From assembly GCF_023375815.1 (NCBI RefSeq), contig NZ_CP067412.1:3224001-3288000 (forward strand): DNA of 64,000 nucleotides, in the 5' to 3' direction. The notes below the pieces were generated by a model. The model did not search any database, was not told the DNA's origin, and was given only the letters and a program-made list of their open reading frames with translations. This DNA is from Pseudomonas sp. HS6 (GTDB taxonomy: Bacteria > Pseudomonadota > Gammaproteobacteria > Pseudomonadales > Pseudomonadaceae). The number at the start of each line of letters is the position of its first letter. The first letter of the stretch is position 1. This document shows positions 38,775 to 48,780 of this stretch, in pieces. The translations under genes were made by a program, and so were the position numbers.

Positions 38775-39761
38775 TCACGCCAACCCCGGCGCTTCACGAA
38801 TAATGAAGTGATCCAGGTTCTCGATATTGGCATTGAAGACCTCGAAAGGTTTTTCGGGGTTCTTCTTGCCCGGCACCTGTTTCAACTCCGGCGTCACGCC
38901 ATAAAAGAAGCAAAACAACTCCTTATCGCTGTCGATGGCGTGCTTGATCTCTTCCAGAAACGCCTTGCGCTTGCGGTAGTTGTCGATCAGCTTTTTGTTG
39001 AGATAGACACTGACCGGATAAGGCTTCTTCTTGCTGTCATCCGGCTTCTTGAACCAGACCTTGTCCTCGAAATCGATCCGGAAACTGGCGCTGTGAAAGT
39101 CCTCGATTTTCTTGATCCGGCCCCAGTAAATCAGCCCCTTGTTGTCCATCAAGTACTCGATCTTCTTGAAGAACGAACTGTACGGCGCCGTATGCTCGCC
39201 AATCTTCAACGGCATGCGCTTGAGCAAATCCTTGTCCGCGAAGTTCGACACAAAACACTCCACGGGGTGAGCGAAGACACTGGTCTTGTCCGGCGCCGTC
39301 TCACGACTCGGCGACTCTTTCGAGTTGGTAGCCGCCACCCGCACCGGATCATCCCGCAACACATCCGCCGCCCCCGCAGGCGCGGCAGGCTTGCGCACAT
39401 ACTCACGGCGTGTCAGCAACAATTCCGACGGGAAATGCTCCTCCCGCCCGTCATCCGTTTCCCCATCCGCCGCCTCAACCCCCGGCGCCGACGTCTTCAA
39501 ACTCACATACGGACAACCCGCCACATGCTGCGTACCGGGCAGATTCTTGAAGTGCGGCGTGCGCACGTAATTCACGTTCTTGGCGTTGAACGTACCCAAC
39601 TCGTTGGAAGCATCGAACGCCGAACGACAGGCGTCGTTGGGGCACTGGAAGTGTTCCTTCGCGGAATCGAACGCCACCGTCTCATCGAAATTGAGATCGC
39701 GAACGTCATAGATCGACAGTTTGTCGTCGAGGCTGAGGCAGTAGGCGAGGTCGAATTTCAT
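38775..39761 (-). CDS. Orphan protein with a C4C/HxxxC zinc-like motif
   Basis: 328 residues from MKFDLAYCLSLDD (39761). An N-terminal segment has FQCPNDACRSAFDA (C-x4-C, about residues 39-44) and later PHFKNLPGTQHVAGCPY (H-x3-C), a ligand set reminiscent of the zinc-binding start of CoiA-like proteins. The middle is low-complexity. The C-terminal 170 residues are Lys/Phe-rich with no recognised domain. No signal peptide. It lies next to a phage-type antirepressor gene. Not recognised; nucleic-acid binding is an inference from the zinc-like motif. Confidence 0.65.
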   Translation of the reverse strand: MKFDLAYCLSLDDKLSIYDVRDLNFDETVAFDSAKEHFQCPNDACRSAFDASNELGTFNAKNVNYVRTPHFKNLPGTQHVAGCPYVSLKTSAPGVEAADGETDDGREEHFPSELLLTRREYVRKPAAPAGAADVLRDDPVRVAATNSKESPSRETAPDKTSVFAHPVECFVSNFADKDLLKRMPLKIGEHTAPYSSFFKKIEYLMDNKGLIYWGRIKKIEDFHSASFRIDFEDKVWFKKPDDSKKKPYPVSVYLNKKLIDNYRKRKAFLEEIKHAIDSDKELFCFFYGVTPELKQVPGKKNPEKPFEVFNANIENLDHFIIREAPGLA

Positions 39762-39892
39762 GGTGGGGCTCGGGTCCTTGAGTGGGGGAGGGGTATTAAT
39801 AGCGGGTGATGGGGTGGGTTGCACTGATTGTTTTCAGAATGATGCAGAACCAGTCTGCCGGGGATTGGCTATCCCAGGCACTCTGGGCCATA

Positions 39893-39931
39893 AAAAAACC
39901 GCTGCTTGAGTTTTCAAGCAGCGGTTTTTTG
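39893..39931. terminator. Strong terminator after the BRO gene
   Basis: AAAAAACCGCTGCTTGA, loop GTTT, TCAAGCAGCGGTTTTTT: a 17-bp perfect stem with T-run on both strands. It ends the minus-strand BRO operon 3 bp after its stop. Confidence 0.92.
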
Positions 39932-39934
39932 ATG

Positions 39935-40444
39935 TCAGTAACTACGCAGCATTCGTGAAGCTTTACGCCACCAGGATTCCTGCCGATTGAACGGATCCTC
40001 CGCCAGCAAGCACGGCATGTCCCGCAAACGAATCCACGGCTCATCCTGCCAGTGCAACGTGCTTAGCGACATCTTCGGCCAGCTCAAAACACTCAACGTT
40101 GGACGCTCAACCGAGCGCATCGGACGGGCATCTCGCAGCGCAGGCACAACCTGATGCGTCACCCACTCACGAAGCTGCCGATACTCGGGACAGTAGTGAT
40201 AGATCAACAGCGCATACACACCTGACTCGCTCACCATCAGATGTTCTCCGGGCTCGCCGTAGGTCTCCACGCACATCATCTGCCGCTGATCGGCGTCGAG
40301 TTTGCGCAGCTGTCGCTCATCCAGATATTTACCCATCAGCCGCCCCAGTTCATGGACGCAGAACCAGGCCTGGTTCTCCACCAGAAGGGCATGCAGGTGG
40401 GTTTTGTTGCGGACAAATCGTGTTGGAAGAAGTGGTTCAGACAT
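39935..40444 (-). CDS. BRO-N domain protein, antirepressor-like
   Basis: 169 residues. The N-terminal BRO domain covers about 5-110: AWFCVHELGRLMGKYLDERQLRKLDADQRQMMCVETYGEPGEHLMVSESGVYALLIYH and REWVTHQVVPALR are the characteristic phage antirepressor/BRO segments. The C-terminal 60 residues are unrecognised. Its ATG overlaps the stop of a 32-codon leader ORF by 8 nt (ATGTCTGA), so translation is coupled. An antisense RNA unit resembling phage P1 C4 lies upstream. Probably a domesticated phage antirepressor. Confidence 0.85.
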   Translation of the reverse strand: MSEPLLPTRFVRNKTHLHALLVENQAWFCVHELGRLMGKYLDERQLRKLDADQRQMMCVETYGEPGEHLMVSESGVYALLIYHYCPEYRQLREWVTHQVVPALRDARPMRSVERPTLSVLSWPKMSLSTLHWQDEPWIRLRDMPCLLAEDPFNRQESWWRKASRMLRSY

Positions 40445-40535
40445 GACGTGCCCCCCAAGTCGGGAGCACGGGATTCAAACGGCGGGTACAGCGATTCGCC
40501 TTCATCGTGAAGGCTGAGTAGTCAGGCATTTCCAT
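40437..40535 (-). CDS. icd-like leader peptide, 32 codons
   Basis: ORF from ATG 40535 (or the ATG two codons later, 40529) to TGA 40437-40439. The CCAGAGG ribosome site (40539-40545) is 3 nt from the first and 9 nt from the second ATG, so the second is the likelier start (30 residues). The peptide is basic and unremarkable (contains YSAFTMKANRCTRRLNP). The ribosome site is part of a segment complementary to the C4-like RNA. Its stop overlaps the BRO start, as in phage P1 icd-ant. Confidence 0.6.
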   Translation of the reverse strand: MEMPDYSAFTMKANRCTRRLNPVLPTWGARHV

Positions 40536-40538
40536 TTA

Positions 40539-40557
40539 CCTCTGGCTGCTTTCTTAG
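40539..40557 (-). promoter_or_regulatory. Target segment of the C4-like RNA, over the leader ribosome site
   Basis: Read on the minus strand: CTAAGAAA (40557-40550) and CCAGAGG (40545-40539). Both are complementary to the C4-like RNA segment at 40581-40599. Pairing would hide the AGAGG ribosome site of the leader ORF and stop coupled BRO translation. Confidence 0.65.
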
Positions 40558-40572
40558 GGCATTCGTTAAGGG

Positions 40573-40650
40573 TGTCGGGAGCTAAGAAACCCACCAGAGA
40601 CGGGCCGGACATATTCCCCTTTCGGGTCTTGTATTCGCCCACTCCCGACA
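40573..40650 (-). ncRNA. C4-type (phage P1/P7 C4, P4 CI-like) antisense RNA
   Basis: On the minus strand a 78-nt unit is closed by 9-bp arms TGTCGGGAG (40650-40642) and CTCCCGACA (40581-40573), with an inner CCC-GAAA-GGG hairpin (40626-40617). Near its 3' end it carries CTCTGG and GTTTCTTAG (40599-40582), complementary both to the leader ribosome-site segment at 40539-40557 and to an upstream copy at 40725-40746. The size (P1 C4 is about 77 nt as I recall), order and gene context fit the C4 family. Processing from the longer transcript is inferred. Confidence 0.72.
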
Positions 40651-40724
40651 TAACGGGACTTTTCGCAGGCGTAGAGAAACCGCAGACGAAAAAAAGCCGC
40701 ATGACTGTCGGGTGCGGAGGACCG

Positions 40725-40746
40725 CTCTGGTACAGACGTTTCTTAG
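40725..40746 (-). promoter_or_regulatory. Upstream complementary segment (first copy)
   Basis: On the minus strand CTAAGAAAC (40746-40738) and CCAGAG (40730-40725), a direct repeat of the downstream target segment. It begins only a few nucleotides after the predicted transcription start and can pair with the C4-like RNA, as seqC does in P4. Confidence 0.6.
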
Positions 40747-40758
40747 GCGTCGCCCGTA

Positions 40759-40786
40759 AGTATATTCATGATGTGCGTTAGGTCAA
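40759..40786 (-). promoter_or_regulatory. Sigma-70 promoter for the C4-like RNA / BRO transcript
   Basis: On the minus strand -35 TTGACC (40786-40781), 16-bp spacer, -10 TATACT (40764-40759). Start predicted near 40752, just before the first complementary segment. A near-consensus constitutive promoter is expected for an immunity-type RNA. Confidence 0.65.
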
Positions 40787-40812
40787 GATTAAAGTTTAGT
40801 CAAGAAGTGTGT

Positions 40813-41658
40813 CTAAGTTTGAATTTTTGTGCGTTTTTTTACAAGTTGCTTTAATTCGTTTAAGGATAGAGGTGGATTTTTTCGGTGAATCATCGAATGG
40901 CAATTGCTGCATAAGGGTACTAAGTCTACAACGGGATTGATGATGTAATCTTTCCCGAGTTTTGAAACTGGAGTCAAATGATGAACTTGAATGTAACCCT
41001 CGCCAATTTCTCCGTAGAAAGTGGAAAAATCGAACTCACATGCTTGGCATGCTGTACCGTAGTAAGAAATGCATGCAGCTCTATTTGAAGGGTTTCTTTC
41101 GTATTTGTTAACCTCAATGCGCGTTATTGAACCTTCTGGATATCCTTTATTTATTAAGTGGTCAGAGCTTTCCGCGTCTTCTAATGTTAGTAATGATAAG
41201 GTTAAAGATAGGCAGCAAGTAGTGACATTTAGAGCGTGAGCGAGTATGGAGTCTGTAGTCGTTTCAGAGGTAGAGAGCCTTTGGCATACATCGATATCAA
41301 GCTTTTGCCATGATTTATTGTTTTCAGCTAATGATTCGGTAAAGTTGCCGTCTGTTGCTACGTATATTTGAAGGTTTTCCTGAGTGGTACGAATTCGATC
41401 AAATTGAATTTTTGATTCGCTGTCAGCCTCCGACATTCTCCGGAGCATAGCTCCAGAGAAATTGTCTGCGGAAAAGCACGCTTCGATTTGTCGGTGTGTT
41501 CTTGAAACAATAATGCAGAAGCTATTTCCATCATCTAAGTCGGAAGGTCTTATGACATCAAATTGACCGCCATCGATAGTCTTTTCTCCAGTTGTAAGGC
41601 GTATGCCAAACCTACCTTCAAGACGGCGGCATAATACTTTGATGTCGAGTGCTGCCAT
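40813..41658 (-). CDS. HNH endonuclease, last gene of the restriction operon
   Basis: 281 residues. The C-terminal HNH domain (about 205-270) is complete: ACQACEFDF (C-x2-C), VHHLTPVSKLG (H-H), the N of INPVVDLVPL, then CSNCHSMIHRK (C-x2-C-H-x3-H). The N-terminal 200 residues are unrecognised. The start codon overlaps the GHKL stop by 1 nt (TAATG). The AT-rich base make-up differs from the chromosome. Likely the DNA-cutting subunit of the system, acting with the recognition protein and ATPases upstream. Confidence 0.85.
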   Translation of the reverse strand: MAALDIKVLCRRLEGRFGIRLTTGEKTIDGGQFDVIRPSDLDDGNSFCIIVSRTHRQIEACFSADNFSGAMLRRMSEADSESKIQFDRIRTTQENLQIYVATDGNFTESLAENNKSWQKLDIDVCQRLSTSETTTDSILAHALNVTTCCLSLTLSLLTLEDAESSDHLINKGYPEGSITRIEVNKYERNPSNRAACISYYGTACQACEFDFSTFYGEIGEGYIQVHHLTPVSKLGKDYIINPVVDLVPLCSNCHSMIHRKNPPLSLNELKQLVKKRTKIQT

Positions 41659-43277
41659 TAAGCAATATCTCCATCTACTGCGTCAGGTAAGTCTGCTACA
41701 AGCTTTTTGAGGTTTCTGGATACTTCGATTCGGAACTCTTCGAATGCGTCTTTGTTTGCGTTGTTTACATTGTTAAGTTCTGCTTGGGCGAGAGCCCATA
41801 ATAGATAGTCTAATGCCTGTATTACTGGACTGTTCTCTTTATTCGGTAGATAGGCCTTAGAGTAAAATGGATGTCCAGTGTTAAGCGACACTGCTGCAGC
41901 AGACCCCCTGCCAATACTAGGTTCCCACAATGCACCATGCTCTAGAGTTGGTGCAGTAGTAATGTGTATCGAACCGGTATCCGTAGAGTCGACGATTTTC
42001 ATCGTCGCGGTTGTCGTGCCGGACTTGTTATTGACAGTTACCTCGCCGGTGCCAGCATCAACGATGTTAACTTCTGCCTTTGTGAGTCCTGCTGATTTTT
42101 GGTTTATCACATTGCTTGAGGAAGCATGGAGAAGTGCAGCGGTGCCCGTTGCAGTGCTTGCTACACCTCGGCGATAACGTATTTCCGCTTCTCTTCGAGG
42201 AGCTGCAAGGATTTTATCACGGAGCCATTCATAAAGATCTGAATTGAGATTTATACGAGATTTTTTTATATCAACTTGAAATGCGGTATCTAACGTATGG
42301 TCGAATGATAATTCAACTCGCATTAGAGAATAATGCGGTTCCTGTTTGAACATTCCCATCCAGTCAGGACCATGGATTAGTCGGTTTTCTCTGTAAACGT
42401 AAACGCCTTGTCTTTCATTGGAAACCCGCGCAGCAACTTTTGCTTCCTCGCTACTGAATTCTTCTTTTCGGGGTAAGATAAAGGCTTTAATAATAAAGTT
42501 TGTTTTCGTTCCATCAGGAAGAACTAGGTCTTGAGTAACAAAAGCAACGGGCTCTTTAGTTTCAGCAATGCAGAATGGATCCCAAGCCTCTACCACTTCA
42601 TCATTTACTCGAATGTTTACTGTTCGCTCACGATCATCGTTGGGATCAAGAAAGCGTTGGTAAACAAGGGCTATATGTTCCTGCAAATTTTTTACTAAGC
42701 GTAGTACTGCCTTTTTTAGAGGGGGGGCAGTGGGGTCTTTATAGCCATTGAGTATTCGGTCTACACTTTCCCAGATTACCACTGTGCCGTGATTATTTTT
42801 TGCGGTTATATTCAGTAATTCGAGCTCGCTATCGGATGGTGATGTTATTTCCAAATCCCAGCTATTCCGGGCCGCCATCACATCTAAGTCCCAGGTTGCC
42901 CGAAGAGGATCTACATCGGCTGTAAACTTTGAGACCACGGATAAACGTCTGCAGAATGCAGTTGATGCGGTTTTAAGTCCTAGCCCAAATTTCCCCAAAC
43001 TTTTAGCACTTGGACGTTTGGGGGAACCATATTTCATAGCGTCCATTAAAGCAGGCCTATCCATGCCGTTACCATCGTCTCCTACGGAAATAATTATATT
43101 TCCGGTAAAGTCAACTACGATTCGCACATCGACGAGATTGGCTTCCGCTGCAATGGAATTGTCGATGATGTCAGCAATAGCAGTGTTAAAATCGTACCCA
43201 GTATCTCTTAATCCTTCACTGATACGAGCTACATCGGGTGCTACAGTAAAAAGATTGTCATTCATGATGATGTCCAT
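41658..43277 (-). CDS. GHKL ATPase, MORC/MutL-like
   Basis: 539 residues. Bergerat ATP site: N-box AIADIIDNSIAAEAN (about 33-47), G1 VGDDGNGMD (about 66-74), G2 LGKFGLGLKTAS (about 94-105). A beta-rich second domain holds the conserved RENRLIHGPDWMG and DIKKSRINLNSDLYEWLRDKI, with Lys likely contacting gamma-phosphate. The first ATG (43277) or the fourth-residue one down (43265) could start. Such paraMORC ATPases lie in restriction systems with SNF2 helicases and nucleases (Iyer, Abhiman and Aravind). Possibly a DNA clamp that gates the nuclease. Confidence 0.85.
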   Translation of the reverse strand: MDIIMNDNLFTVAPDVARISEGLRDTGYDFNTAIADIIDNSIAAEANLVDVRIVVDFTGNIIISVGDDGNGMDRPALMDAMKYGSPKRPSAKSLGKFGLGLKTASTAFCRRLSVVSKFTADVDPLRATWDLDVMAARNSWDLEITSPSDSELELLNITAKNNHGTVVIWESVDRILNGYKDPTAPPLKKAVLRLVKNLQEHIALVYQRFLDPNDDRERTVNIRVNDEVVEAWDPFCIAETKEPVAFVTQDLVLPDGTKTNFIIKAFILPRKEEFSSEEAKVAARVSNERQGVYVYRENRLIHGPDWMGMFKQEPHYSLMRVELSFDHTLDTAFQVDIKKSRINLNSDLYEWLRDKILAAPRREAEIRYRRGVASTATGTAALLHASSSNVINQKSAGLTKAEVNIVDAGTGEVTVNNKSGTTTATMKIVDSTDTGSIHITTAPTLEHGALWEPSIGRGSAAAVSLNTGHPFYSKAYLPNKENSPVIQALDYLLWALAQAELNNVNNANKDAFEEFRIEVSRNLKKLVADLPDAVDGDIA

Positions 43278-43280
43278 TTA

Positions 43281-43709
43281 TCACTTGCAGTTGATGATTG
43301 TCCAGCCGCTGGTAAGTATCAGCGTGTCGCATGTTGCGCTGTCATTATTTGAAGTACGGGATCGGATAATTTTTATTTTGTAAGAGAGATCATCATTTTT
43401 TGAGAAGGAAATTATGTCACCTACGTTTGCGTTCGTAGAGCGTAGGTAGTTGGTCATGCCTGTTAATCTATATTCGTTTCGAGTGCCGCCAAAAAGTTTG
43501 TTGTTGTAGTGTATGTAGCAGAACTCCCACCTAGTGTTGTCTTGTTCTTCAAACATTACAATCGTTTGACGCGGGTTTTTGGTTCCCCTTTCAAGAGTTG
43601 GGAAAAAAGTTAGGATTTCACTTTTTTTGGGAACCAGGATGCCGGCTTGATGCGTTCCTGTTTTTCCCGCATCGTTTGGGCTTAGCTTCTTTCTTGCTTC
43701 TCTAGTCAT
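43281..43709 (-). CDS. Stand-alone EcoRII-N (B3-like) DNA-recognition protein
   Basis: 142 residues. RKKLSPNDAGKTGTHQAGI (about 6-24), FPTLERGTKNPR (near 36) and YNNKLFGGTRNEYRLT (near 68) line up closely with the effector DNA-binding domain of EcoRII, which reads LSANDTGATGGHQVG and YNSRHFGKTRNEKRIT there. The nuclease domain of EcoRII is absent. It should recognise CCWGG-like sites and bring the ATPases and HNH nuclease to DNA not methylated by the Dcm-type methylase. 3 bp from the helicase stop. Confidence 0.8.
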   Translation of the reverse strand: MTREARKKLSPNDAGKTGTHQAGILVPKKSEILTFFPTLERGTKNPRQTIVMFEEQDNTRWEFCYIHYNNKLFGGTRNEYRLTGMTNYLRSTNANVGDIISFSKNDDLSYKIKIIRSRTSNNDSATCDTLILTSGWTIINCK

Positions 43710-43712
43710 AAT

Positions 43713-45614
43713 TTAATTCTTAGAGTTTATTGGGGAAATATTTAAGGCGTCAGCGATTACAATCGGTTCTATTTCTCCTTGATGGCCCGTCACAGCCTGT
43801 CCAGCAAGGGTTTGTTTCGATAGTGAGGTATTTCTGATAACTTCTTCAACTGTGTCTGCATAATAAAGATGATGTATTGTGACTGGTTTTTTTTGCTTTC
43901 GTCGATAGGCCCTAGCTGAAGCCTGAGCTGTTAGTGCTGGATTCCATTCTGGATTGAAATGTATGACGTGATTAGCCGCAGTAATATTTAATCCAGAACC
44001 AGCCGCTTTTGGGTTAAGAAACAGTGCACCAGTTCCCTCAAAATTAAAAAACTCATCGACGATTAGTTGTCTTTCCATGACAAGAGTCCTTCCGTCAATT
44101 TTTCTAAAAAAATTAGTTGGAAAGTTTTTTGGTAGATTTTCAATAAACAAATCGGCTACTGATTGATAAGTTGAAAATATCAGTGCTTTTTCATTTCTCG
44201 AAAAAATCTCTGACAGGATTTCAATGAGTCTAATATATTTTGGGGTTTCTTGAATTGGTTCAACTAACCAATCTGGATGCATTGATGGATTTGCGCAAAA
44301 CATTCTAAGCTTCGATGTTGCTACCAGCCCTGCAGCAGCTCCATACTCAGCTAAGATCTCAGTTCTTATAATTTCGTATTTATTTGCCAAGAGAGTGCTC
44401 ATTGGCAGCGCTTGGGGGATATCGATTTTGTTAGGTAAATCATCGGCGACTTCAGAAACCATTCGCCGTAATATTAAAGGCGCAATGATGGGAGCAATGT
44501 TTTCTGCGCCGTAAGCAGAGTCAGAAAAGCGAATGTTGAACTGATCTAGATCACCTAATAAGCCCGGTAAAACAAAATCGCAGATTGACCACAAATCTTC
44601 TAGTTTGTTTTCGAAGGGAGTGCCAGTAACTGCAATAGGGACGCGGCAGGGCAGGCGCTTGATAGCTAAGGTTCGTTGCGCATGAGGGTTCTTTATATTT
44701 TGCGCTTCGTCCAGGGTGATGATATTCCAGTTTATTGATGCGAGTAGAATTTCATCTTTTATTGCAGTTTCGTAGGAGGTAATCGTGATGTCACATAACC
44801 CTAGCTTTTTTGTTATTCCTGCACGATCCGATCCAATGTGCTTTTGTATCTCAAGATTCGGAGCAAATTGAATGATTTCTCTTGCCCAATTCTCTATTAG
44901 TGTTGCAGGAGCAATAATTAGTGATGGACCTCGCAAGGAGTTTTTTTCTTGCTGCAATAGGGCAATGATTTGTAAGGTTTTCCCCAGCCCCATTTCATCA
45001 GCTAGTACACACCCAACACCCTGCTGTGAGTTTTTCTGAAGGTGTAGAACTCCGATGGCTTGATATTCATACAGTTTGGCATTTAAGCCGTCTATTGCAA
45101 TTGCATGGGCGCCATCATAGGTCGGTGTGAAATCTTTTTCTGAAACTGTATCAATTACCTTGAAAGGTTGATCTTCAGAGATGCGTATATCTATAAGTGA
45201 AGCAATATTTAGCCCTGAGTTTATATTTATATTCTTTGAACTTAGCCAAGCTAGCGCGGTGTGGAACTGGCTTTTATGAATTGGATGCCATGTGGAATTT
45301 ATGATCGCTTGATCAGAGTCTGTCGAAATAGCAATAAACTCGGATGTGGAGCTTACACCAAGCTCAGACTTTATATTGTTTGATTCAGAGCTTATGCAAA
45401 GTGTCACTTCTGCGGGTATTTTTGAAAAGGTGACATCCGGCAGATGAAGTTTCGGGTTTTCTACTTCGTAACTTTTGTAGTGAGTGATGCCTTGAAACAC
45501 AATCTGGAAAATTTCCAGCGCGGTAGGTTCTACAGTTTCACCGCATGGAAGGCGGAGGGCTATTTGATTCTCTTGCCGTATCCATTGTGTTTTCTTCATC
45601 CTGAAGACCTTCAT
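43713..45614 (-). CDS. SNF2/SWI2-family superfamily II ATPase
   Basis: 633 residues. Motif I VLADEMGLGKTLQIIAL (about 206-222), Ia LIIAPATLIENWAREI, II TLDEAQNIKNP (near 303), III AVTGTPFENKL, V LNPKAAGSGLNITAANHVIHFNPEWNP and VI QASARAYRRKQKKPV, all of a translocase. The N-terminal 190 residues are unrecognised and may bind partners. Start 45614 overlaps the end of vsr by 77 nt; a second ATG (45599) is nearer to a weak AGG. Likely moves along or remodels DNA for restriction. Confidence 0.9.
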   Translation of the reverse strand: MKVFRMKKTQWIRQENQIALRLPCGETVEPTALEIFQIVFQGITHYKSYEVENPKLHLPDVTFSKIPAEVTLCISSESNNIKSELGVSSTSEFIAISTDSDQAIINSTWHPIHKSQFHTALAWLSSKNININSGLNIASLIDIRISEDQPFKVIDTVSEKDFTPTYDGAHAIAIDGLNAKLYEYQAIGVLHLQKNSQQGVGCVLADEMGLGKTLQIIALLQQEKNSLRGPSLIIAPATLIENWAREIIQFAPNLEIQKHIGSDRAGITKKLGLCDITITSYETAIKDEILLASINWNIITLDEAQNIKNPHAQRTLAIKRLPCRVPIAVTGTPFENKLEDLWSICDFVLPGLLGDLDQFNIRFSDSAYGAENIAPIIAPLILRRMVSEVADDLPNKIDIPQALPMSTLLANKYEIIRTEILAEYGAAAGLVATSKLRMFCANPSMHPDWLVEPIQETPKYIRLIEILSEIFSRNEKALIFSTYQSVADLFIENLPKNFPTNFFRKIDGRTLVMERQLIVDEFFNFEGTGALFLNPKAAGSGLNITAANHVIHFNPEWNPALTAQASARAYRRKQKKPVTIHHLYYADTVEEVIRNTSLSKQTLAGQAVTGHQGEIEPIVIADALNISPINSKN

Positions 45615-46095
45615 TTTTTGGAGTGTTGGAAACTTTTTCAGCAGTAAAGCTTGCTCGCGAAATTTCGAGATTGGATGAACCTCCCCTTATCCATCGACTC
45701 AGCTCCACAATTACGTTGCTTACGGTGATGCCATTACCTCTGATGGCACACTCCCATACTTTACAAACTCTCCAACCATTGTCTAGCAGTTTTTTTTCTG
45801 TGAGGTGGTCGTTTTCTCTATTTCGACCTATTTTTTTTTGCCAGAATTCTGGACGCGTTTTGGGCCACTTGAATAATGGACAGTTGTGGCCATGCCAGAA
45901 ACAACCATGGACGAATATGACCACATTGTACTTTGGTAAAACTAGATCAGGTTTCCCAGGCAGTTTTTTTTCATGAAGCTTATATCTGAACCCAAGTTTA
46001 TGAAGGGACCTACGAATTGTTAGCTCCGGTTTTGTATTCTTGGCTCTAATGCCGGACATCATCCGGCTTCGAGTTGAGGGGGAAACGATATCCAT
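45538..46095 (-). CDS. vsr: Very short patch repair endonuclease
   Basis: 185 residues. Family motifs MSGIRAKNTKPELTIRRSLHKLGFRYKLHEKKLPGKPDLVLP (catalytic Asp in GKPDLV near 50), FVHGCFWHGHNCPLF (zinc and catalytic His near 63-68), and WECAI. It nicks the T strand of T:G mismatches that arise by deamination of 5-methylcytosine in Dcm-methylated sites. It begins 2 bp after the methylase stop. The last 40 residues beyond the usual end overlap the SNF2 gene and look unconserved. Confidence 0.92.
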   Translation of the reverse strand: MDIVSPSTRSRMMSGIRAKNTKPELTIRRSLHKLGFRYKLHEKKLPGKPDLVLPKYNVVIFVHGCFWHGHNCPLFKWPKTRPEFWQKKIGRNRENDHLTEKKLLDNGWRVCKVWECAIRGNGITVSNVIVELSRWIRGGSSNLEISRASFTAEKVSNTPKNEGLQDEENTMDTARESNSPPPSMR

Positions 46096-46097
46096 AG

Positions 46098-47357
46098 TTA
46101 AGCGTGCAAAAGGTCCGATTTTTTTTCTACGGTTTGAGTATGACCTTCTAGATGGGGGAGCATAATTCTAGCTACCTCTTTAATTACAGGCATCACTACA
46201 CTATTACCAAATTGGCGATATGCTTGTGTGTCACTTACTGGAATTCTGAAAGTATCTGGAAATCCCATAAGTCTTGCGCACTCTCGGGGAGTTAATCTCC
46301 TTGGATTTTTAAGAGTGCCTTGGTATACCAATATTTCCGAGCCGTCCTTATGATATCTAGCCGACAACGTCCTGGTGATGCTGTCAGGGTATGCTAGGCC
46401 GAAACCAAAGCCATTTCCTGCGGCGCTATGCTTCAACTTATATGCTTGTAAGTAATTCCACAATTTTGGGGTGAGGGTATACTTTTCCTGCACTGCCCAA
46501 CGGCTATGGTCAAAGTATTTGTCGCCGTCCCAAGGCAGCATTGGTTCGCTACCATCATCTTTATGTAAAATGCTAGAAAGACGGTAAGGGGTTGGAGGAA
46601 GACATAATTCATCCCAAGTGAAATTTGTACTTTCTTTAAATCCAATAATTATAATTCGCTCGCGATGCTGAGGTGTAAAGTGCTGTCCGTCTATTACTTT
46701 GTAATGGACTTCGTAACCAAGCTCGTCTTTGAGCGTTCTTATAATTTCCCTAAAAGTATTTCCTTTGTCATGTGATATTAAATTTTTGACGTTTTCTAAA
46801 AGAAATGCTTTCGGCCTTTTTGCTTCGATAATTCGCGCCACATCAAAAAAAAGAGTCCCTTGGGTTGTACATTCAAACCCGTGCGGGCGTCCCAGCGAAT
46901 TTTTTTTACTGACACCTGCAAGGGAAAAAGGTTGGCATGGGAAGCCACCTAAAAGAATGTCATGGTCGGGAATATCGCTGCTGGGGAATGGAGTTATGTC
47001 GCCAACAAATAGATGGTTGTCGCCATAATTTTCAATGTATGTTTTTTTTGAGTACGTATTCCACTCGCTCGTAAATACGCATTCACCACCATGTGCCTCA
47101 AAGCCCATCCGAATTCCACCGATTCCGGCGAAAAGGTCAATAAACTTAAATTTCGGTTGAGAACTCATGACTTCCTTGGTTTCAGGGTGCGTTAGTAGTG
47201 ATTTCAGCGCTGGTTCAAGCATGACGGGGCATGGAGACTCTCCCTTTTCCCATCTGCGGATAGTCTTTGCATCCTTACCGACGTGTTCGGCGATCTCACG
47301 TTGGGTGTATCGACTTCTTGCTTGTTTTAGAAGTTCGAGTGATTGAGCGGACGGCAT
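46098..47357 (-). CDS. dcm: Dcm/EcoRII-type DNA cytosine-5 methyltransferase with N-terminal HTH
   Basis: 419 residues. An XRE-like HTH (about 6-45, [25 protein letters not shown]) is followed by a C5-methylase: motif [16 protein letters not shown] (about 72-86), [22 protein letters not shown] (Cys nucleophile), [39 protein letters not shown] and YRQFGNSVV. It resembles E. coli Dcm strongly, including its specificity part near [20 protein letters not shown] residues, so CCWGG methylation is likely. The HTH may autoregulate the operon, as in EcoRII and SsoII methylases. First gene of the six-gene operon. Confidence 0.92.
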
Positions 47358-47474
47358 ACGAAAGGCTCGGCGGGAATTTTGTGGGACATTATGACCTATG
47401 GCTTTCCCATTCGCGAGGATTTTGATGCTTGCGATTATTCAGTGGTATGGGTGGAAAATTGATGACGCTATCGT

Positions 47475-47498
47475 GAAAAAGGCCGCCTATTGGCAGCC
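47475..47498 (-). terminator. Terminator of nrdB
   Basis: On the minus strand GGCTGCC, loop AATA, GGCGGCC, TTTTT. It lies 30 bp beyond the nrdB stop and marks the right border of core sequence next to the restriction island. Confidence 0.75.
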
Positions 47499-47529
47499 TC
47501 ATTTTCGGTTTTGCTAGCGTTTCAGGGAA

Positions 47530-48780
47530 TTAGTCCCAGCTCAACGCCCCACCAGTCTGATACTCAATAACTCTCGTCTCAAAGAAATTCTTCTCTTTCT
47601 TCAAGTCCATAATCTCGCTCATCCAAGGGAACGGGTTAGTCGTCCCTGGATATTCTTCTTTAAGGCCGATCTGCGACAGGCGACGGTTAGCGATGAACTT
47701 CAGGTAGTCCTCCATCATCGCCGCGTTCATGCCCAGTACGCCGCGAGGCATGGTGTCGCGGGCGTATTCGATTTCCAGTTGGGTGCCCTGCAGGATCATC
47801 TGGGTCGCTTCTTCCTTCATTTCGGCATCCCACAGGTGTGGGTTTTCGATTTTGATCTGGTTGATCACGTCGATGCCGAAGTTCAGGTGCATGGATTCGT
47901 CGCGCAGGATGTACTGGAACTGCTCGGCGACGCCGGTCATTTTGTTGCGGCGGCCCATGGAGAGGATCTGGGTGAAGCCGCAGTAGAAGAAGATGCCTTC
48001 CAGAACGCAGTAGTAGGCGATCAGGTTGCGCAGCAGTTCTTTGTCGGTGTCCGGGGTGCCGGTTTCGAACTTCGGATCGGAGATCGAACGGGTGTATTTC
48101 AGGCCCCAGGCGGCTTTTTTCGCGACCGACGGGATCTCGTGGTACATGTTGAAGATCTCGCCTTCATCCATGGCCAGCGATTCGATGCAGTACTGGTAGG
48201 CGTGGGTGTGGATCGCCTCTTCGAACGCCTGGCGCAGGATGTACTGGCGGCATTCCGGGTTGGTGATCAGGCGGTACACGGCCAGCACCAGGTTGTTGGC
48301 AACCAGGGAGTCGGCGGTGGAGAAGAAGCCGAGGTTGCGCATCACGATGCGGCGCTCGTCGTCGGTCAGGCCTTCCGGGTCTTTCCAGAGGGCGATGTCG
48401 GCGGTCATGTTGACTTCTTGCGGCATCCAGTGGTTTGCGCAACCGTCCAGATACTTCTGCCAGGCCCAGTCGTACTTGAATGGCACGAGTTGGTTGAGGT
48501 CGGCGCGGCAGTTGATCATGCGCTTTTCGTCAACGGCGACACGGGCGGAGGCGCCTTCGAGTTCGGCGAGGCCTTCGGCGACGTCGAGGGAGTTCAGTGC
48601 AGCCTTGGCGCGGGCCACGGCGGCCGAGTCAGCGGCGGTCACGGCGCGGGCTTCGAGAGCAGCGGCACCGCCAGCGTTGTCGAGGCGGTCCATGTTGGCT
48701 TCAGTAGCGTGGCCGGCGTTGGCGCCTTTCACTGCTGCTACTTCACTGTCTTCTTTGTCGAATTCGTCCCAGCTCAGCAT
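47530..48780 (-). CDS. nrdB: Class Ia ribonucleotide reductase, beta subunit
   Basis: 416 residues. Diiron/tyrosyl-radical protein that supplies the radical for ribonucleotide reduction. Metal ligands and radical region are visible in [17 protein letters not shown] and [15 protein letters not shown]. An N-terminal 80-residue extension (Ala-rich) precedes [21 protein letters not shown]. The C-terminal tail ends in [10 protein letters not shown], which docks in NrdA. nrdA is not next to it in this window. Confidence 0.95.

Follow-up and report, generated by a model that had tools for sequence, protein, structure and literature searches.

A C4-like self-antisense leader of the sRNA-Xcc1 family that may silence a BRO gene at a conserved chromosomal site in Pseudomonas

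Our analysis points to a BRO gene on a Pseudomonas chromosome whose own leader RNA would silence it, in the manner of the C4-icd-ant unit of phage P1. In the 64,000-nucleotide stretch of Pseudomonas sp. HS6 DNA that we analysed (the window), an RNA of the Rfam family RF02221 (sRNA-Xcc1) lies between two sense segments of its own leader, and these are followed by a short open reading frame (ORF) that overlaps the BRO start. Judged by sequence comparison, RF02221 loci have the layout of phage P1 C4, and the gene behind this one, at a site conserved on the chromosome, looks like an antirepressor that has been domesticated. We put the probability of the whole model, in which a self-antisense leader silences a domesticated BRO gene at such a site, at about 0.7. 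The leader reads as follows:

40786-40759, minus strand: sigma-70-like promoter, TTGACC-16-TATACT, 10/12 matches
40751-40735, minus strand: hairpin seen in the sequence, GACG - CCTAAGAAA loop - CGTC, which displays the a1 block
40746-40725, minus strand: sense copy 1 (target 1), made of a1 CTAAGAAAC (from 40746) and b1 CCAGAG (40730-40725); seen in the sequence and covarying with the antisense RNA
40725-40714, minus strand: putative antiterminator hairpin GCGG-TCCT-CCGC, from folding, overlapping the end of b1
40717-40689, minus strand: putative intrinsic terminator CCGCA-N11-TGCGG-C-TTTTTTT, between sense copy 1 and the RNA
40650-40642 and 40581-40573, minus strand: perfect 9-bp arms, seen in the sequence
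40649-40566, minus strand: RF02221 (sRNA-Xcc1) RNA, 84 nt, C4-like, matched over its full length at 68.9 bits (gathering score 53)
40599-40582, minus strand: antisense segment CTCTGGTGGGTTTCTTAG, from a genome-wide pattern scan
40557-40539, minus strand: sense copy 2 (target 2, a2/b2), seen in the sequence and holding the Shine-Dalgarno sequence of the leader ORF
40529-40437, minus strand: leader ORF, 30 codons, icd/orf45-like, its ATG kept in relatives
40444-39935, minus strand: BRO gene, 169 aa, with a Bro-N domain, antirepressor-like (PF02498; PHROG anti-repressors)

A plausible scenario is that one transcript from the promoter at 40786-40759, with an expected start near 40752, just 5' of sense copy 1, would carry target 1, an attenuator, the RF02221 RNA, target 2, the 30-codon ORF and BRO. 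The RF02221 RNA would be cut out of read-through transcripts and would pair, both in trans and in cis, with targets 1 and 2. Pairing at target 1 would free the terminator and stop transcription, and pairing at target 2 would block the leader ORF, to which translation of BRO would be coupled. BRO would be released when the antisense RNA is titrated or fails; the terminated short sense RNA may itself titrate, as IsrK does.

Much of this anatomy had been read from the DNA in the original prediction, and on inspection it holds: (i) the three related segments lie on the minus strand; (ii) the 78-nt unit closed by perfect 9-bp arms is present; (iii) a strong -35/-10 pair precedes everything, with one such promoter here where shuffled sequence gave 0.1 on average; (iv) the second sense copy contains the ribosome site of the short ORF and (v) that ORF, with 32 codons from its first ATG and 30 from the conserved one, overlaps the BRO start by 8 nt. 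The RNA itself consists of a closing stem, a hairpin 1, a hairpin 2 with the anti-b segment in its loop, and a linker with anti-a, and the predicted energy of the antisense duplex is -28.1 kcal/mol with sense copy 1 and -23.8 kcal/mol with sense copy 2. The stem of the a1 hairpin appears in an alignment of relatives as GGTG/CACC, GGCG/CGCC or GAG/CTC. Across the 6,547,752-base genome the paired motif CTAAGAAA-N2..14-CCAGAG occurs three times, all in this leader, twice as sense and once as antisense copy, with no further site of the exact sense pattern, and the reversed CTAAGAAA/CCAGAG pattern occurs once. The folding energy of the 78-nt unit beats shuffled sequence only modestly (z -1.47; 21 of 200 shuffles were equally good), and the case therefore rests on comparison.

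For that comparison RF02221 was searched in 199 same-genus genomes, where 42 had a match and every match passed the cut-off, and in 369 genomes of the class, where 26 had a match and 12 of these passed it; our own genome is counted in both sets. The 59 loci from these scans, some of them below the cut-off, together with contigs carrying the exact scaffold pattern, gave 173 usable loci with 152 distinct RNAs. Two RF02221-type scaffold patterns lie on each of three contig stretches (L153, L289 and L322). Across the 152 RNAs, the longest exact match was greater to the RNA's own flank than to swapped flanks in all four comparisons, and own flanks beat all 2000 permutations. A 7-mer test covered the 130 loci with a definable block before GCGG, which hold 61 distinct antisense 7-mers: the upstream target 1 was identical for 40 of the 61 and agreed at six or more positions for 49, the downstream target 2 was identical for 20 and agreed to that extent for 40, and loci with a misplaced b1 (L016, L017, L132, L133 and similar) were counted as failures. 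Among 1199 swapped RNAs, a control from which relatedness is not fully removed, 7/7 was reached in 0.3% and 6/7 in 8%. The scaffold pattern also occurs in at least 120 stretches of viral contigs, and in 103 distinct viral RNAs, for the b segment only, at least seven nucleotides were matched upstream in 76 and downstream in 66 (swapped, 9.8% and 5.1%). The expected co-variation of the three segments across related genomes is thus seen in both the 7-mer and the longest-match tests, and together with the whole-genome pattern count it rules out a chance inverted repeat. In Xanthomonas/Dyella-type loci target 2 mostly agrees at only 4-5 of 7 positions and is not recognisable, and action at two sites is therefore not universal. 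It had further been suggested that a phage with a matching target could be silenced, or that its own C4-like RNA could derepress BRO; no phage with the matching target emerged, the exact sense copy 1 pattern being present in a single stretch among the viral contigs, without the remaining layout.

With respect to family membership, the unit is a C4 unit by anatomy and not a C4 member by model. The C4 antisense RNA model RF01695, which the original prediction had named as a check, gave no hit at E<=10 across 40300-40900, although the same model library scored P1 C4 at 68.8 bits; the RNA belongs to RF02221, whose sole match in its own genome it is. The c4-a1b1 model RF03163, which gives 51 bits on P1, likewise had no match at E<=10 in the window leader. 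Conversely, RF02221 had no match on the P1 stretch at E<=1, RF01695 matched none of the 15 RF02221 loci searched alongside P1, and Rfam gives no clan for RF02221. What the window does share with C4-type units is the sense-antisense-sense order with targets matching the antisense loops, and a short ORF overlapping a downstream antirepressor-type gene; a C4-type switch also implies RNase P processing from the leader and repression of the downstream gene.

The likeness to P1, which had been proposed from the layout, is borne out in detail. The P1 record annotates putative a1/b1 targets, C4, a2/b2, icd and ant, and P1/P7 C4 (RF01695, RF03163) share with the window the order a1 b1, antisense RNA, a2 b2, short ORF, antirepressor. 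P1 C4 also has the closing stem, a hairpin 1, a hairpin 2 with anti-b and a linker with anti-a, and P1 carries GTGCGG-ACAA-CCGCA followed by TGCGG-TATTTTTG with its T-run after b1. The window unit differs in that it is chromosomal, stands before a Bro-N gene and shows no model cross-match with P1. This GCGG/CCGC/GCGG-T element of P1 (L061:656-715) is not discussed in the passages that were available.

Two further systems resemble the window by description. In phage P4 the CI RNA with seqA/seqC likewise lies between two complementary segments of its own transcript and, in the parts of PMC4825925 available, is described as acting on termination; P4 differs in controlling replication genes rather than a BRO gene. 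The excerpts of PMC5320573 describe chromosomal C4-like sRNAs in Acinetobacter baumannii, apparently processed from longer transcripts, and so a case of C4-type RNAs kept in a bacterial chromosome; those RNAs match C4, unlike ours, and these excerpts say nothing of a BRO gene coupled to them at a conserved site.

Between target 1 and the RNA lies the putative attenuator, whose terminator-like hairpin at 40717-40689 the original prediction had missed. Its loop is 11 nt long, and a terminator scan limited to loops of 3-8 nt does not list it. Of 152 loci, 125 have a terminator-like hairpin in the 115 nt upstream of the RNA (13 of 453 shuffles), and at least 55 of these 125 contain a copied arm, a lower bound in view of stems that the terminator finder misframed (e.g. 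L002, L009). In the window, GCGG-TCCT-CCGC and CCGCA-N11-TGCGG compete, and b1 extends into the first GCGG. Equilibrium folding gave the terminator a probability of 0.003 in the free leader, 0.255 with b1 masked and 0.826 with b1 and GCGG masked; masking a1 alone had no effect. Over 126 leaders, P1 included, the median probability rose from 0.288 free to 0.771 bound, with a rise of more than 0.1 in 56 leaders and a fall of that size in two, and exceeded 0.9 when bound in only 28. No antiterminator effect appeared in the equilibrium folds of three Xanthomonadales loci (0.72-0.78 free, 0.77-0.78 bound), and in P1 the value hardly moves (0.157 to 0.224). Because target 1 abuts the antiterminator/terminator pair, we favor the possibility that antisense pairing there may stop transcription, besides the ribosome block. 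In the RF02221 family the better conserved target is the upstream one, which the P1 record annotates as no more than 'putative', and this argues for control by termination.

A related arrangement is found in Salmonella Gifsy-1, where IsrK/STnc1160 - orf45 - anrP offers a terminated short sense RNA, a read-through mRNA with a complementary segment, and a coupled short ORF and antirepressor; according to the portions of PMC4825925 available, the layout is the same and coupling through orf45 was shown by experiment. The short terminated sense RNA might accordingly be the main regulator in the window as well, binding the antisense part of the read-through mRNA and so opening the leader ORF while the antisense RNA serves chiefly as a cis lock. 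We regard this as quite possible, if short of probable, and it is compatible with the main model. IsrK is an activator of this kind in a similar layout, the terminator-like hairpin in 125 of 152 loci would yield such a short RNA, and identity is more often preserved at target 1 (40 of 61) than at target 2 (20 of 61). Against it, the isrK model RF01394 has no match at E<=10 in the window leader (the P1 leader reaches 35.1 bits with it, under the cut-off of 50), and the RF02221 RNA of X. campestris was found as a discrete species, 88 nt by RACE and ~100 nt by northern in the sections of PMC2996969 available, as a processed C4-like RNA would be. In the same portions of PMC4825925 the authors raise action of the C4-like RNA STnc1160 on the terminator as a possibility; co-expression of STnc1160 strengthened the IsrK effect rather than weakening it, which is a misfit with a simple termination role there.

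Returning to the self-antisense model, the overlap through which the two genes would be coupled recurs in relatives: of 21 loci, 20 have a leader ORF of 30 codons and 19 a BRO overlap of 8 nt, the remaining two for the overlap being one where BRO was not found (L007) and one where its start was mis-called by the script (L008). Among ten close relatives the median dN/dS was 0.79 for the leader ORF (45 pairs) and 0.09 for BRO (33 pairs). BRO is, by this comparison of sequences, under purifying selection, and the leader ORF seems to be kept for its length and translation rather than for its peptide, as is likewise said of orf45. The protein carries a Bro-N domain (PF02498, 34 bits against a cut-off of 25.6, E 4.8e-08) and falls in the PHROG anti-repressors; as an antirepressor it would antagonise a phage repressor. 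No solved relative was found by sequence at E<=0.1, and the AlphaFold model is poor after residue 107. The N-terminal part of that model resembles Ski/Dachshund domains (Foldseek probability 0.97), with a best match at E 0.072 that is not significant, and we rejected kinship with Ski-like proteins on that ground.

The gene sits at a chromosomal site whose parts are:

39824-38775, minus strand: conserved gene of unknown function on the far side of the site, in 98/199 same-genus genomes
47357-40813, minus strand: cargo between nrdB and BRO, comprising a dcm-type methylase, Vsr, a SNF2 helicase, an EcoRII-N protein, an MzaB-like ATPase and an HNH protein (domain scans)
48780-47530, minus strand: nrdB on the near side of the site, in 9/14 related stretches

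The far-side gene has no Pfam, PHROG or NCBIfam match. In all 14 same-genus regions compared BRO is followed by this gene, and nrdB stands on the other side in nine, the other five stretches ending before it. The cargo differs among relatives, restriction and Vsr genes included, and is partly absent or diverged, so that 38775-48780 has the appearance of an insertion site with varying restriction- or defence-type cargo. Among the BRO matches listed, at least 52 of 97 marker genes have a BRO gene within 15 kb upstream; the complementary figure of 45 sites without BRO is unsafe, being based on the best 150 BRO matches. Also among the BRO matches listed, RF02221 lies within 600 nt upstream of BRO for 40 of 46 same-genus matches.

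It could be argued that switch and BRO are leftovers of a decaying prophage without present function: BRO and C4-type switches originate from phages, the RF02221 scaffold pattern is common in viral contigs (at least 120 stretches), and G128, among the 52 BRO genes of the site, shows an internal stop in the search listing. We consider this improbable given (i) the dN/dS of 0.09 for BRO as against 0.79 for the leader peptide, (ii) the recurrence of BRO at the site in at least 52 of 97 cases with the marker gene and (iii) the ten window proteins around BRO, none of which belongs to a phage structural family. The last result agrees with the earlier remark that no other phage genes lie nearby, and the conserved order nrdB - BRO - unknown gene, with the low dN/dS, fits the view that BRO looks domesticated.

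The same site has a second kind of leader. Of its 52 BRO genes 21 have an RF02221 leader and 31 do not, and 30 of these 31 carry a different one of 143-169 nt (L227-L254, L256, L257); L255 has neither. Rfam gave two sub-threshold matches at E<=0.1 and none above threshold on the 31 loci. The second leader has the same target 1 (CCTAAGAAAC.CCCAACGTAG), an anti-target GTTGG..TTTCTTA and then CTCTACGT[C/T]GGG, whose possible partners are target 1 and the ribosome site CGTAGAG. When the 30 leaders are folded singly, 28 have the ribosome site bound to the anti-SD at P>0.5 and two have the alternative pairing, which spans up to 10 nt. These folds suggest a lock in which sense copy 1 pairs with anti-sense 1 and the ribosome site with the anti-SD, and which the alternative pairing could open. 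No covariation was seen in the complementary segments of the second leader; these hardly vary and therefore cannot be tested by covariation. Its inner rod was compared in four subgroups, where changes on both sides affect 6 of 49, 4 of 48, 1 of 37 and 0 of 26 pairs. R1, a model built from the 30 second leaders, matches 45 of 199 same-genus genomes (35 at >50 bits), these 30 included, nine of its ten weak matches are RF02221 loci, and it had no match in 274 class genomes, our own among them; the exact sense copy 1 of the second leader was found in no viral contig. On a tree of 58 BRO proteins (the 52 site proteins and six others) the distribution of leader types takes 9-10 changes to explain, well supported branches forcing at least six, and leaders or site segments have therefore been exchanged or recombined several times. 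It is conceivable, although we would call it doubtful, that the site BRO under two interchangeable RNA devices, the RF02221 attenuator and the self-locked leader, serves as a permanent RNA-gated sensor, perhaps for matching segments in phage or mobile RNAs, beside an insertion point for defence genes.

Elsewhere RF02221 precedes a recurrent set of genes. Ten representative ORFs behind it, each the longest ORF and not always the true next gene, comprise two Bro-N, two Rha-like (one below the Pfam cut-off), one KilA-N, one SymE and one HTH protein and three without a Pfam match, one of which represents a 23-member Xanthomonadales-type cluster; the cluster containing BRO accounts for 48 of 147 such ORFs. 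SymE genes, assigned by Pfam, follow in all six of a further set (L031, L033, L056, L057, L152, L206), with b1 matching at 7/7 in three of them and at 6/7, 5/7 and 4/7 in one each, the poor ones being L031 and L206; the available part of PMC12444791 also places sRNA-Xcc1 upstream of symE. In viral contigs 85 of 105 ORFs form one single-linkage cluster with a Rha-like representative, and in phages Aaphi23 and Rac-SA53 similar DNA (78-79% over the RNA part) lies just before genes annotated ant. A P. aeruginosa plasmid (NZ_CP093017; L226:4001-4739) also carries leader-like DNA, 72% similar across 64% of the query, which stands in front of a BRO gene and adjoins a mercury-resistance/Tn3 region.

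C4 units proper are also present in this genome: RF01695 has 28 matches, 27 above the cut-off, dispersed and all outside the window (L408, L411-L437), whose b segments match at least 7 nt of the upstream flank in 27 of 28 and of the downstream flank in 26 (swapped, 15.5% and 11.1%). An ORF follows in 25 of 28, with a KPTPNPP-like start in 19 of these 25 (at L421 a script error put the start out of frame). Ten of these ORFs were scanned, five being DUF6124 and five without a Pfam match; an assignment of these small genes to DUF3077 was discarded in favor of Pfam's DUF6124, of which the literature searched made no mention.

sRNA-Xcc1 is reportedly, by the title of Chen 2011, an integron-encoded trans-acting sRNA under HrpG/HrpX. 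The disfavoured reading that it acts in trans on unlinked genes, its place before BRO being incidental, follows the sections seen of Xanthomonas and Xylella papers that describe or discuss it as trans-acting, and is the least probable of all, as changes in the antisense segment are accompanied by changes in the targets on either side, the exact paired pattern has no other site in its own genome and the genes downstream are repeatedly Bro-N, Rha, KilA-N or SymE. The available parts of the sRNA-Xcc1 literature describe no flanking targets, and among the largely open-access papers searched no title or abstract opening describes this layout for RF02221.

The model thus offers a testable function for sRNA-Xcc1, discussed in the accessible parts of plant-pathogen papers as a virulence-linked trans-acting sRNA: it would be a self-antisense switch for the next gene, be it BRO, Rha, KilA-N or SymE. 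For the organism, a phage-type RNA switch is kept at a conserved chromosomal site where two RNA leaders have repeatedly been exchanged in front of a single conserved gene, while 28 C4 matches lie elsewhere in the genome, and a type of switch already familiar from phages seems to have been recruited to a set place in the chromosome.
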